64,000 bases of DNA from Cyathus striatus (Eukaryota; Basidiomycota; Agaricomycetes; Agaricales; Nidulariaceae): contig JAOVFP010000007.1 of assembly GCA_025738555.1 (NCBI GenBank), positions 2,418,001 to 2,482,000 of the forward strand, in the 5' to 3' direction. Positions 56,283 to 64,000 of the stretch are shown piece after piece. Each line of letters opens with the position of its first letter. Within the stretch, counting starts at the first letter, position 1. The notes beneath the pieces are model-generated. The model saw only the letters and a program-made list of their open reading frames with translations. It did not search any database and was not told the origin of the DNA. The translations under genes and the position numbers were made by a program.

Positions 56283-57583
56283 TCAGGTTAGGTGCTGTGA
56301 ATTAGGATACGAACTCTTCCATCGAGGACTCTTTTACTAGAGCGCTAAAGGTATATTAGCGCCATCATATACATTATACTGTACCCTATAACATCAAGTC
56401 GATACCACCAACCGCACAAGAGAAAAAAAGTATTAATTGCATAAAATGTTGTACTCTATTCCCAGAGCGCTGAAGCTAAAGGAATATCAGCGCCCTATCA
56501 TACCAAGCAGACACCAAGTCATAGATAAATACATCGGGCCATGACCAGAAGAAAAACAAAAACTTCGCTTCCGAATAGTAGTTAAGTAGATAACGGTCAG
56601 ATAGCGGGCACCCGGTCTGTTTATGTCTGCGCATCGGTATTATGTACATATTATAAGCTATACCAATTTTAAAGTGTCCGAGAACCACTAATATTTCTTT
56701 CGATGTAGATAGCCCACCGAATAAAGTCCAAATTTTTCGAAGTAATAGTATGTAAAGGTTAAAACTACATTACCTGACATTTCACAATATATACAACGGA
56801 AGCCGATTACAGTTATGCTAATTGGTTTTCAATACTGATATTATTGCTGCGCACCATAACGGCAGATTCTTCATGGCGCTAGCCATTATCCAGAATGCGG
56901 AACCATGAAACATAATAAAATATGTTCCGAAAAGCTATATCCCATAATCCATCTTCATTTCCCAGAAATAATTACCATACTGTAAGTCTGTAAGTGTACC
57001 GGACATAAGTAATTACCATTCTGCGCAAACTGATTTAAACTGTGTAAATCCCAATCACTGTATGCTGATACACAGTAAGTTTGCAGTAAATATTCATTTT
57101 AATTCCAGTCGTAGGTAATATATTGTTCGTGTAAAATTATACTGTATACTACGTGTATTAATCTACTGTAAGTATGTTCATCTAACTTTGATATCAATTA
57201 GATATGTACATAGTATCGGGCGGCGGCCCCGATGGCGCACACCAAGGGGCTGCCATTACTGCAATTTCCAAAAGTAGCATATCCCATGACCCCGTGGGAA
57301 GTGGCTGTGGCCGCTCGCGGAAACTGATCGTAACCGGTAGCCGGTAAGTCACATGACTTCGACGCGCGCGTCGCACAAAGTGTATTACTATTCATCGATC
57401 CACGCACTGTAATTGAAGCATTTCTTGTAAATCACAATCGATAAATGCATGTAGAGTTAAATTAAATTAATTAATAGACACTATTCGCATATTTCGCTCA
57501 CTGAATCACTATAAAACTAGTGTAAGAACCTGATTACCCCAGGAATACCCCCCTGCTTAACCTCTGCTCTTGCTGATTGCAAC
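56283..57583. other. Intergenic, AT-rich, with a GC-rich patch
   Basis: No gene seen. A GC-rich patch at about 57,215-57,375 (CGGGCGGCGGCCCCGATGGCG) contrasts with the flanks. AGCGC..TAAAGG-like text occurs near 56,339 and 56,465. This region must include the promoter and left end of the element carrying the next gene, but I found no terminal repeat. Confidence 0.4.
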
Positions 57584-60500
57584 ATGCCTCTTCCTGTTAA
57601 AAGGACAAAAACTCCAGTTACATTTAAACTAGATGAGTTATCTCTGACAACAACTATTGATCCTAGTACTGGATGTCACTTTGTTGTGTGTAACAGATGT
57701 GAAGAAACTGTTAGACTTACAGTAACTGCCAATTTTGACCCTATGAACAAACACAGAAATGGAAAAAAATGCAAGCACTATGCTTTAAAAAAGGGCCTTA
57801 ATTGGAATTATGATCTATCTTGTGAAAGAATTGAAGAAGAATCTGGAGCTTCTGAGAACCATGTTAAAAAGTCAGTGGCATATATTTCCTGTCCAGGCTT
57901 GGCTATTTCTTGGAATCCTGGTTCAATTTGGACAACATACCCATATCATAGACATGGATTAAGTTCACTCCCATGGGTACCAATTAAATTTGACCATAAA
58001 AAGCAGAAAATATTTATGAGGTCACAGAAATGTATTGAAGCAGAAGACAAAGAAAATAATAATAATAATAATTTGGTACATCCAGGTGAAACACCTTGCT
58101 TAAATTGCCAGGGAATCCCAAACATAAATGCATTTAAGAAGTTTATGGAGCAAGCAGAAAGTACAAAAGAAAATAAATCTTGGGATCATCTCAACTATAT
58201 GCAACTCAAATCTGCTATGACAAAAATGAGAAAGCAATTGGATACATTATATGTAAAGGTAAGTAAATAAATCAGAGCTATATGTTGCAATTGAATATTA
58301 ATTACATTTAATTTACTTCAAGTTAAACAATGCAGAAAAAAAATTCAAGACATATGAGCAAAAGGTTGATGATCATCAACGAATTGTAATGCTGATTGAA
58401 AACAATGAAATAGCTGGACTGAGACGACTAATATCAGCTGAATTGAGACATGGAGGGTCTCCTAAAAGTATAATTGATAAGATCCAAAAGTGTCTTAGTG
58501 GGCTATATAGTCCTCGAGGTGGCTTTACAGAACAGGACCTTGATATTGGCTTCCTTGTAAAATCCATTAGGGGACCAAAATTGCTTTATGCCCTTTCCAA
58601 ATCACATGGTCTAGCTTCAGATACTACACTTCGCCACCATAAAAAGATACCTCGCTTATTAGCAGCTATTTCTACCCCATCATCTGAGGAAAATAATCAT
58701 AATATATCAACATTTCTTGACCCAGATATTCATCCATCTCCTCTGCCTATCAGAGGTAGAACTCCAGGAAATGTTCTCATGTTTGATGGTATTGCACTTG
58801 AAACAAGATGTCATTATTGTTCCCAGCGAAATCAAATAATGGGTCTTTGCCGGGAACATGCAGAAAATGTTAAAACAGAAGTCACAGATTATCAAGTTAT
58901 TGAAGATGTACGTAGAAGATTACTTAATACTTCTGGTGAGAATGATAAGAAAGTATGCTTAGGAAAAGAAGCTACAGTTGTTGCATTGACTCCATATTCA
59001 CATCTCAATCATTACCAACCTGTTCCTTTAGTTGTGTCTGCAACTGACAAAACAGAGAAATGGGTACAGTTGAAGTTATGGATGGAAACATTCTTACATA
59101 ACTATAAAACACATTCATTTGGAGAAGCACTTAATGGGCCAATATGGTCTCTTGCAAGTGATGGTGACTCAACATACCGTCGTGCTAAGCATGAAATTTG
59201 CTCACAGTCAGTGATTCAAAATGATTCAGAGATGGGTAAAATACTTTCAAAGTTATCAGGATTAAATTTATTCACATCTGTTAATGGTATTACATGGACA
59301 TGTGATCCAAAGCATATATTCAAACATTTTGCAACATTACTCCGAAGTAAGGATGGTGTAATGGTATGTGATACAAATATCACTTCAGTTGATATTATAC
59401 TGCATTTATCTCAGCTACCAGACATGACACTTCAAAAGGCAATTACTCTTCTTGATCCAGCTGACAAACAAAATGTTCCAAAGGCTGTATCTCTTATACA
59501 GCATCTCTTAAAACTTGAATCACTTCCCATGCCTTCAAATCCAGCAGAAATAAAAAAAAGAAAAGCTATAAATTTTTTTGCACACTTTCTTGGGTGCTTT
59601 ACACTTCCTTTCATTGATATAAATATGTCTCTTGAAGAGCAGTTAAAATCCTTATGTAAATTTGCACATTTGGCTGTTGCACTTCATCACAAACATGGAG
59701 TATGTAGCCTTACAGGTACACTATATATAGACTCACAATCAACTATCAAGAATATTATCATTACTACTGCACACTTACAATTAATTAGTCCTGATCTTGC
59801 ATTTTATATTCTTGATGAAGGAACAGACAGACTGGAAATGTTGTTTGCTGATTGCCATACACAAAATCATGCACGTAACTTTGATATTGAAGAACTTAGT
59901 GGAAAGCTTAGTGTTGCCACTTTGGTAAATAGTGCATTCATGCGAAATCCTGATATTCACAAAGGTACTAGGCGTCTAGATTTAAAAGATGTCATTGGTG
60001 TTGATCATGTAAATCCCAAATCATGGAAAGGCACAGTGACAGTTGGTGATCTTGATCTGGAGACTATATGGAAAGATAGCTGTAAAGTAGCAAATGATAC
60101 CTTAATGAGATATTCCGAGAATACTTGGTATTGTGATTTTGAGAATATCTTTTTAAAAAAAGATCATGATATTCTCCGTCCTTCAGGAAAATATGTGGGA
60201 GTTCAATTCTCTGAGAAATCCTCTGAGAGTGAGAATAGATCTGAAATTGAGAATCCAACACTTCAAATGGAATTAACAGAGAATAACTTAATAGCTTCTG
60301 CTTTGAATATAGAAAAGCAATCTGCACATTCTATTCTGTCCACTTCGACTTCTAATCATACTCACACCTCACTTGTTGCAAGTCTTACATTAAACCGTTC
60401 ACAGAAAGTTACAATGCGGCCTTTGCATGCACAAGGAATGGCAATTGAGGATCTCTACAAGCAATCAAAATTTCAAAATGTAGCAGTACCTTCTGCTGAA

Positions 60501-61841
60501 AACTCTGCTGCCTGCATGAAAAGTACTGACCTATGTGCTTTTTTATCACGGGTTGGAAAAGAAATATGTCTTGCAGTTCTTGCAGTTGTAGGTTTCAGAT
60601 ATAAGGAAAAAGATGCACAGACAAGATCTATAGCAACTTTAGAGGATCTCTCTGATTATAAAAAGGGAGTAATTGTTATTGGGCAAGTCATTCAACTGGT
60701 GAATATTGAATCAAATATCTGGGAATGGACTGGTAAATACCTACCTATTGCTACTTTCTCAGAAAACTCACAAATAAGTAAAGCTCTTTATGTACTTGAG
60801 CTTCCATCTATTCTGACTCATCCACTCCATCAATATGTAAGGAAAACTTCAACAGGTAAAGTTACTTGGGGTGTGGATGGTGATGAACTGTCAAATATAG
60901 TTACCACTTTATGGCAGGCATGCAACTTAGCTAGTTCAGGTCTTGAGACTCTTAAAAATATTCAAATACTTCCTGAAATAAAGAATGAAGATTCACTCCC
61001 TTATATCTCTTCATCTGGTAAGTTGTACTTGTTGATAATTAAATAAATCATAGTAATATATATTTAGGACAAAAATGCTTCATTGTTGATAATATTCCTG
61101 AAACTCTAGTGCCTAATGACAAGTTAGAAAGTGATGAGGTTGTTCACTGCCATATATGTGGAGATGAGAAGATGCTTAAACAAATGCGTGAACATGTAGG
61201 CCACCATGTTCTTGCAAAGTTTAGAGGAAAGCTAGACAGGGGACTGCTTCAAGAGGTATGTCTCCTCCTTTCTAATTAGAATACAGAACAAATGCCTGAA
61301 TACATTGTAGATTGAAGTAGAACCATGTGGATTTTGTGGAAGAGAAGATGTTTGCATAACAACTCTTACAAAGAAGAGAAATGGAGCTGGATCTATAACA
61401 TCTACCTGTGAATATCAAGATATAAGCATGAAATACAAAGCTACAACAATCTGTAAACCTTCAAACCATTGCACCAATGTTCCTATTCACTGCCCATTTT
61501 GCCTACCATCCATATCTGGTGTCCCAAAAACCATCTGGAAATATAATGCAATCAATCATTTTCTTATATTTCATGGAATAGAAGATCCCTCACAGCCTGG
61601 AAAATATTTAAATACTGAAATATCTGGGCAGCTATTGGTAGACATTTTCATTTCAAAAGAAGAAGAAAGACTAATGAATATTCCTTATGAGGCAATACTA
61701 TTTTTTAGAGATGAATATGGGATAGGAAACAGTGATGACATTGTACATGTTCAGAATGATTTGAAAGACAAGAAGAAAAGAATAAGATCTGTAAGTGATC
61801 AGCAAGCTGTTCCAAAAGGAAAGAAACAGAAAAATAAATAA
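57584..61841 (+). CDS. P-element-like transposase, 1,362 aa, intact reading frame
   Basis: Exons 57,584-58,258, 58,323-61,017, 61,068-61,255 and 61,311-61,841; introns 64, 50 and 55 nt; all phases fit. N-terminal zinc-finger pattern C36-x2-C39...H57...C63. A coiled coil of about 45 residues spans the first junction. A helix-turn-helix-like SIRGPKLLYALSKSHGLASD then TTLR follows. The RNase-H-like part has D380 (VLMFDGIAL), an inserted C-x2-C...C-x2-H cluster (388-404), D505 (SLASDGDSTYR), CDPKHIFKH (about 552-560) and, after an alpha-rich insert, D727/E730 in GTDRLEMLF. This order matches P-element transposases (FDE, DG, DPxHxxK, D-x2-LE..F). C-terminal fingers: CHICGDEKML..H..H (exon 3) and CGFCGR, CPFC..NHFLIFH (exon 4). 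I infer cut-and-paste transposase. Alternatives are a domesticated descendant or an unnamed related family. Confidence 0.75.
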
Positions 61842-62203
61842 TCAGTAGTTTAGGTATATTTATGTATTATACTGTGTATAAAAATTACTTGTAGCCTTGG
61901 TGCTTGAACCGGGGTTGAGTGTTTTGCACGGACACGGTCGGATAGATCGGATAAGTATCTTCCTCGAGAGCTTTCCTCGAGGCTCGATTCGGCTCTCACT
62001 GGTTTAGAGCAGCAATCCAGTTGTTCCATCTAATGATGTGGGCAAAATGTCGCCGTTTCGCCTTGCCAGGCGGCGAAACTGCCAGTGATGAAGGGGAGTG
62101 GCGATACCCAGCAATATTATTATGGTCCCATTTTTCTTATGCAATTATGTAATTAAAAGTGTCAACATAGGATTGTCCAAGAAAATATATTCTGCAGCTG
62201 CAA
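61842..62203. other. Spacer between two transposase genes
   Basis: Contains a GC-richer segment with CCTCGAGAGCTTTCCTCGAGG (about 61,960) and GTTTCGCCTTGCCAGGCGGCGAAAC (about 62,055), both hairpins. One may mark the right end of the P-like element or the left end of the hAT element. No ORF. Confidence 0.5.
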
Positions 62204-63466
62204 ATGGCTAAAAAAAAAGGAGGACAACCTGCTGATGAGTGCATATACCAGCATTTCGACAGGAAAGGCTATTTGGAGAGCACTAGATGACGGAATGTTG
62301 TCTGCAAGTACTGCGCAACACAGATTGTGCACAGGGATGGCCGCTGTGGAATACATCTGGTAGAGCAGTGTCCAAATGCTTCAGAACAAGTAAAAAAGGA
62401 TGCAGGCTCATATCTTATTGCACATGGTGGAGGGGCTCAAATAGATGTTTCAGACTCAGAGAAGGAAGAGGTCTCAGGTGTTGCTGAAGCTGGTTCTTCT
62501 CAAAAAAAGCGCAAGGATATATCTGGGAAAGCAGTGGTGGTTAACCATGGGATGGAAAGCTATGTTGATAGAGCACTTACAAAGAAGGAGCAGGATAAAG
62601 CAGATACATGGCTCTTGAAGTAAGTAGGCTCAGAAGTTTTGATACTGTCATACATCACTACTGATGCATTGGCAATTGACAGATGGTTCATTCATGGGAA
62701 TATCCCCTTTAGCCAGGCCAACAATCCCTTCTTCACTAAATGGGTAGAAAGCATCCAGCCCTGTTACTCACCAGCATCTCAGTTTGTTCTCACAATGAGA
62801 ATTCTGCCGGCAGAGGAAGCTCAAGCCTATGAAGATGATCTTAAACATTTGAAGAATAAGGAGAACATGACATACCTAATGGATGGCTGGGAAGATAGTA
62901 TGTGAAGATGTCTATATGGGTGCCTTCTCACTGAAGTGGGTGAACACCTATTTATACTTGGCTTGAAAGAGTTTACTGGAGTGCGAGCAACAGCAGATAA
63001 TCTGCTGGATGTTGCAAATGAAGCTCTGAAGCGAAAATTGATTGCTCCAAGGTCTATTATTGCAGTGTGTACAGATAACCCAACCACTATGCAAGCATTT
63101 TGTCATAAATGGACAATGGAAGGGAGCTATCCATGGATTCTTGTAAGTGTTATACATGTATGAAAGTGGTATGCAATTTACAAGTTAATCCAATAGCAAC
63201 TCCCTTGTTTTATGCATAGCATAAATACAATCATGGGGAAGGTGTCAAGCTTTCCAGCTATCAAGAAGCTGATTTCTAAGAATGTCAAGATCGTTTCCTT
63301 CTTTAATGCATCACACTATTGGGGGGGACAACTTGAAGAGCTCGTAAAGGAGCATAAAGTCACTTGGGGTTTGAAGAAAAATACTGAAACAAGATTTTAT
63401 GCTGTTATACTGCAGGCTATCAGTATTCAAGAACATAAGCAAGTCTTGTACAAGCTTTGCTTATGA
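62204..63466 (+). pseudogene. hAT-type (DUF659-like) transposase, decayed
   Basis: ATG at 62,204. A BED-type finger (CKYC...HLVEQC, 62,308-62,365) is followed by a spacer, then, after a probable intron 62,619-62,681, IPFSQANNPFFTKW and a helical part to LMDGWEDSM. The next part reads CLYGCLL..VGEHLFILGLKEFTG, IAVCTDNPTTMQAF and PWIL. After another intron come QLPCFMHSINTIMGKV, VKIVSFFNASHYW and KKNTETRFYAVI. This order is that of fungal hAT elements with the DUF659 core. TGA at 62,288 and at 62,903 (Arg or Trp expected) interrupt it. The C-terminal dimerisation domain is not seen before the stop at 63,466. Confidence 0.85.
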
Positions 63467-64000
63467 GATTGATAAGACTAACTTTTAGAGAATGTTTATT
63501 TATGTAGTATTAACACCACCAACAAAGAACATAAAGTTCAAGTTAGTTTATATTTAGTTTGAGGGCACAAGAGTTTCATGTATAGTAAAGTGAACTAAGT
63601 GTTTAATAGTAGATAGCGCAATTGCCTTCAGGTACTTTCAGAACAGACTTCAGACTTCAAATTTGTACTCGGAATCCAATATCAATTTCAGAATGTACTC
63701 TACTGCAAGAACAGAAGTACAGCCAGTGCAGTGCTTAAGGTATTCTAAAGGTATGTCTAACTACTTATATATTTAATTACATGGCAGCGGTCTCATGCAC
63801 AATGGTATAGGTAAAGTAAATAGTATATCATAATGTACTAGTGCATCCTAATGGTCAAAGAGGTATGGTCAACCCTCCATACAAGAATCCATGAGGGTGT
63901 GCTCAGTTTCAGAGATGCATCAAGTGCTGCACCATGCTATTAATAGACACATGTCAAGACATGCACTAATACATGTGCTAATCCTGGCCAAGTACTTGGA
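63467..64000. other. No gene recognised at the window end
   Basis: AT-rich. May include the rest of the hAT element, but no coding signal or terminal repeat is visible. Confidence 0.4.

Follow-up and report, generated by a model that had tools for sequence, protein, structure and literature searches.

Gene Structure and Predicted Fold

We analysed a 64,000-nucleotide stretch of the Cyathus striatus genome (hereafter the window; C7:2418001–2482000, C7 being contig JAOVFP010000007.1 of a 107 Mb assembly in 24 contigs), which carries a P-element-like transposase gene on its forward strand at 57584–61841. A first-pass annotation, made from the sequence alone, had described this gene as 1,362 uninterrupted codons. 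The length holds for the product but the continuity does not: the interval contains three ATG-to-stop frames of at least 80 codons (228, 885 and 137 codons), and three introns, all GT–AG (58259–58322, 61018–61067 and 61256–61310), have to be removed to join four exons into a protein of 1,362 amino acids. The last intron could also be spliced in one other way without disturbing the frame, which would yield 1,361 amino acids. This predicted gene model rests on the reading frame and the splice signals. The motifs quoted earlier (MFDG, SDGD, CDPKHIFKH and GTDRLE) are all present in the spliced product, and the residue numbers D380, D505 and E730 are borne out. Coordinates are collected in Table 1.

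Table 1. Features of the transposase gene and its element (window coordinates).
Feature	Position	Strand	Remarks
Left terminal inverted repeat	57243..57370	+	starts 5′-CAAGGGGCTGCC; 94% identical to right repeat of the C3 copy
Exon 1	57584..58258	+	225 codons; N-terminal finger and second Cys cluster
Exon 2	58323..61017	+	long first helix, helical region, RNase-H core interrupted by a helical insertion, strand-rich C-terminal part
D380, first catalytic Asp (MFDG)	58785..58787	+	in strand; aligned with P D230
C388-x2-C391...C401-x2-H404 motif	58809..58859	+	directly after first catalytic strand
D505, second catalytic Asp (SDGD)	59160..59162	+	directly after strand; aligned with P D303
D553-x2-H556, [C/D](2)H motif	59304..59315	+	directly after strand; aligned with P D339-x2-H
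Mostly helical insertion	59307..59825	+	between the D553-x2-H556 strand and the helix with E730; P has its GTP-binding domain here
E730, third catalytic residue (GTDRLE)	59835..59837	+	in helix; aligned with P E531
Deletion junction	60367..60368	+	195 bp (65 codons), in frame, relative to the C3 copy
Exon 3	61068..61255	+	first C-terminal finger: C1151, C1154, H1166, H1170
Exon 4	61311..61841	+	more conserved Cys/His clusters; stop codon
Breakpoint	61899..61900	+	C3 homology ends; right 203 bp including right inverted repeat absent

The structure predicted for exon 2 contains the RNase-H fold that the first-pass annotation had anticipated, and in the profile alignment the catalytic residues are in register with D230, D303 and E531 of the Drosophila P transposase. 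In model numbering, D162 lies in strand 157–166, D287 directly after strand 281–286 and E512 in helix 509–516, which is the RNase-H arrangement of Asp in β1, Asp at β4 and Glu in the last helix. D335-x2-H338 follows strand 331–334, in agreement with the [C/D](2)H motif that is described directly behind β5 in the P superfamily (in an excerpt of PMC8230255). Helices between residues 362 and 495 form an insertion domain, and the alignment to the P structure 6PE2 spans model residues 9–549; 427 residues are aligned with P at 12% identity. In the structure alignment, the places of the P coiled coil and helix-turn-helix are taken by the first long helix of exon 2 and by its helical region. Fold comparison of the model gave Z scores of 20.5 for P, 10.8 for Transib and 6.7 for Hermes. 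In a 37-row family alignment that includes the window protein, D505 and E730 are kept in 37/37 rows, D380 in 35/36, and both D553 and H556 in all 36 rows with a letter.

Terminal Repeats and Related Copies

A sister copy on contig C3 matches window positions 57243–61899 at 97.5–99.1% DNA identity, bar two extra stretches in the C3 copy. It ends in 127-bp inverted repeats, 93% alike and starting 5′-CA[A/G]GGGGCTG, and carries the same 8 bases on both flanks. Genome searches seeded with the right end of the C3 copy and the left end of the window element returned at least 42 matches each, which we interpret as 15 element-like pairs. For 10 of the 15, both ends were obtained, and target duplications were checked on those 10. 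The flanking 8-mers are identical in six (two on C3 and one each on C18, C8, C2 and C1), and a pair on C20 agrees at seven of eight bases, giving 7 of 10 pairs with 7–8 of 8 matching bases of varied sequence. Twelve of the 15 pairs span about 1–2 kb, which leaves no room for the gene, and are therefore non-autonomous. The left repeats of the C18 and window copies share 98% identity.

Copies with terminal repeats and 8-bp duplications, which the first-pass annotation had suggested looking for, are thus found in the genome; the window copy, having no right end, is not itself among them. The identical 8-bp flanks and the repeats up to 98% alike support the view that the family has moved recently.

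Relationship to the P Superfamily

P relatives were gathered with a P transposase segment verified against PDB 6P5A (454 residues identical), giving 125 at an expectation value (E) ≤ 0.001, of which 36 were aligned into a profile. The family profile matches it at E 6.5e-4 and a probability of 27%, in an alignment that brings the catalytic residues and a KQ-x-V motif into register; it scores 45.0, whereas none of 14 controls, reversed or column-shuffled, scores above 21.6. Under other column settings, those of the bridging comparison described next, the same match reaches E 7.1e-6 and a probability of 84%.

Exon 2 matched 57 genome stretches (from the best 50 of 105 candidates scored), many of them just 23–36% identical. 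From 19 loci of this second, bridging group, 12 open reading frame (ORF) pieces passed a length filter and one fragment was dropped, leaving an 11-ORF profile. This profile matches the P relatives at E 4.5e-11 and a probability of 97%, from the second Asp through the Glu, with a score of 95.2 against a maximum of 19.6 in 11 controls, and matches the present family at E 1.2e-92. The ORF at locus L036 matches P on its own (361 columns, E 3.5e-4); around the first Asp its CMDEM is aligned with AFDEM of P, and it has DDILERLFGRVRMAGG at the place of NQDIVEHFFGSMRSRGG in P.

We consider it very probable that the window holds a damaged DNA transposon of the cut-and-paste type and that its transposase is a member of the P superfamily, taken broadly as defined by the catalytic domain, in a fungal branch apart from the animal THAP-type one. 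The basis comprises the reading frame and splice signals, the predicted fold, the conservation of the catalytic residues, the repeats and 8-bp duplications of the sister copy, and the loss of the right end. The kinship with P elements put forward in the first-pass annotation is backed by the fold, the direct profile comparison, the bridging family and the 8-bp duplications of related copies.

Several results weigh against this assignment. The Pfam P-element models, which that annotation had named as a check, match 0 of 37 family rows at E ≤ 10, in searches where HMMER filters drop most weak matches, and a genome search with PF21787 and PF21789, run without a positive control, gave no match. 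A sequence search of PDB returned no convincing match, the direct match of the family to P has the low probability already given (27%, or 84% with other settings), and P was the sole superfamily profile compared. Three pairs (C17, C7:862k and C21:1179k) have no matching duplication, with 5, 5 and 3 of 8 bases in common, and no THAP domain was found in exon 1 by Pfam or by ligand spacing. The Pfam TNP-like RNaseH and GTP-binding domain (GBD; GTP, guanosine triphosphate) models describe the animal branch and are not a definition of the superfamily. No Pfam P-element model matches the gene itself either. Kinship to P is therefore remote, and with P as the one superfamily profile compared, specificity for it rests on the fold comparison.

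An origin in another superfamily (Kyakuja, Dileera and Zisupton (KDZ), CACTA/Transib-like, hAT or Kolobok), with a resemblance to P by shared RNase-H architecture only, appears improbable. Besides the restriction to one profile, it can draw on hAT elements making 8-bp duplications too and on the D(2)H motif being common to further superfamilies. KDZ elements share with the present family their occurrence in fungi and, as reported for Zisupton and for one Dileera element (in an excerpt of PMC12730594), duplications of 8 bp; however, Pfam KDZ (PF18758) matches 0 of 37 rows at E ≤ 10, and none of the KDZ genome matches listed is the window gene. The CACTA/Transib clade carries a C-x2-C between the second Asp and the Glu, according to the same excerpt (PMC12730594), whereas the window protein has none between 505 and 730. 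The Z scores for Transib and Hermes fall well short of that for P, and the E value of the bridging profile also argues against a resemblance by shared architecture only. Kolobok, whose target duplication is TTAA, was compared by target duplications and disagrees with the varied 8-bp ones of seven of the 10 pairs. The genome as a whole contains 159 KDZ-profile matches, a copy split into exons being counted more than once.

The family transposase most likely works by cut-and-paste. It may dimerise via the first long helix, its fingers and helix-turn-helix would bind the 127-bp repeats, and the RNase-H triad would cut and join DNA, leaving the 8-bp duplications.

State of the Window Copy

The gene had been called intact, which is true of its frame after splicing but not of the element. 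Homology to the C3 copy stops 58 bp past the stop codon, and the right 203 bp of the C3 element occur nowhere in the remainder of the window. Among the best candidates, no right-end copy occurs downstream on the contig before C7:3239359, 0.76 Mb away, and the nearest upstream match besides the left repeat is 64 bp long and 0.28 Mb away. With one inverted repeat missing, the window copy is unable to move itself; its transposase could at most act in trans on the short copies, which carry repeats matching its own at up to 98% identity.

The 195 bp deleted from the window copy are open and coding in C3, where they encode an acidic stretch ending GKKYLKS. The linker at this site measures 71 residues in the window protein versus 87–151 in all 39 homologues compared, all of them Agaricomycete hypothetical proteins, making it the shortest of 40. 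The C3 copy keeps both ends, and its gene is broken: codon 116 is a stop, the frame is shifted, 770 bp are inserted and two splice sites are lost. The insert (L031:3664–4425, about 770 bp) has nearly the same 8 bp on either side, agreeing at seven of the eight bases, and is possibly another transposon.

The two copies differ by 58 nucleotides in residue-changing codons, one of them to stop, and by 14 silent ones. Polarised with two further copies as outgroups, 21 differences were assigned to the window copy, 35 to C3 and 14 to neither, 20 being unplaceable. Coding changes derived in the window copy comprise 12 replacements and 3 silent changes, small numbers that about fit drift, under which a ratio of roughly 3:1 is expected. 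Arginines conserved in the family have become His at positions 560 (Arg in 33 of the 36 rows without a gap there) and 737 (35 of 36).

The first-pass annotation had left the choice between a recently active and a domesticated gene. Recent mobility applies to the family, not to the window copy with its lost repeat. Domestication of a P-like transposase as a host gene is very improbable: the open frame after splicing, the missing right repeat and a best full-length database homologue just 51% identical would agree with it, but the near-identical sister copy, the 12:3 changes, the two lost arginines and the 65-codon deletion in the linker all speak against it.

The CpG observed/expected ratio is 0.16 in the gene body (57584–61841), 1.15 in the inverted repeat (57243–57370) and 0.59 in the whole window, as if the body, and not the ends, had long been methylated. 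CpG transitions account for only 1 of the 21 changes assigned to the window copy.

Cys/His Motifs and the GTP Site

The P-element layout proposed for the protein stands for the catalytic motifs and for the places of the coiled coil and helix-turn-helix, but not for the first finger. Its ligands are spaced C-x2-C-x17-H-x5-C (C36, C39, H57 and C63, kept in 32, 34, 36 and 29 of 40 rows), unlike the C2CH pattern of THAP, and exon 1 has no Pfam match. The model predicted for this part has a mean local confidence (pLDDT) of 84 and a predicted template modelling score (pTM) of 0.53. A second Cys cluster in exon 1 comprises C103, C150, C172 and C175.

The Cys/His motif after D380 is conserved as well (C388, C391, C401 and H404 in 28, 32, 36 and 37 of 40 rows) and probably binds zinc; the first and second Asp are 125 residues apart, and the extra residues sit in the stretch containing this motif. 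Of the C-terminal Cys/His positions, 13 of 18 counted are kept in 25–38 of 40 rows, C1151 in 36. The Cys-rich insert and C-terminal fingers had been noted as additions to the P plan; they are present and, being conserved across the fungal family, are traits of that family.

In the fly enzyme D444 contacts GTP and is essential (in an excerpt of PMC8230255). In the profile alignment this residue faces a gap, and residues 643–657 of the window protein hold no conserved Asp (D657 in 12 of 37 rows), from which we infer that the family may not use GTP. Only tentatively do we suggest a large Agaricomycete P branch with a different finger where THAP would stand, an insert in the core that binds zinc and no GTP-site Asp, which would amount to a GTP-independent transposase. 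If true, such an enzyme would reveal the role of a GTP-binding domain without GTP.

Relatives in Fungi and Comparison with Known Systems

Of 7,992 database candidates scored against exon 2, 188 are homologous at E ≤ 0.01, the best with 51% identity across the whole exon. The best 120 of the 188 are 33–58% identical and carry no Pfam domain; those named by source come from Pholiota, Mycena, Agaricus, Ganoderma, Exidia and others, which we take to be all Agaricomycetes, and the others from contigs without a source name. Searching with a profile returned 174 proteins, the best 120 of which are alike in kind, one being fused to an oxidoreductase domain. Hypothetical proteins of Pholiota molesta, Mycena and Agaricus resemble the window gene in motifs and fingers and belong to the same family. 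No description of this fungal P branch was found in open-licence papers, a set outside which the key surveys fall.

The Drosophila P transposase (PDB 6P5A, 6PE2) shares with the family the predicted fold, the D/D/E triad, the D-x2-H motif, the helical insertion domain and the 8-bp target duplication. Its repeats measure 31 bp versus 127 bp in the fungal family, which differs further in its 12% identity, the non-THAP first finger, the Cys/His motif after the first catalytic strand, the long C-terminal part with fingers and the lack of a visible D444 counterpart. The vertebrate P homologues THAP9 and Pdre2 share the order D, D, D-x2-H, E (304, 374, 414 and 613 in hTHAP9, in an excerpt of PMC8230255); their first and second Asp are 70–73 residues apart, versus 125 in the window protein, in which THAP was not found.

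The P group, famous from animals, would thus extend into fungi, and a large set of unnamed fungal hypothetical proteins would be tied to it, with a profile for annotating Agaricomycete elements and natural variants with which to study the GTP requirement of the fly enzyme. Two or more P-like families would reside in this one genome, one of them with short derivatives sharing inverted repeats and usable for activity tests. The second, diverged group (L036:3018–5630 and loci L012–L030) is mostly 23–36% identical to exon 2, has many genome matches and some long open frames, and its profile is closer to animal P than that of the present family. Directly downstream of the window element, a finger-bearing stretch with interrupted frames (62190–63500), whose 110-amino-acid open piece has no Pfam match, resembles a decayed transposase of a different type.
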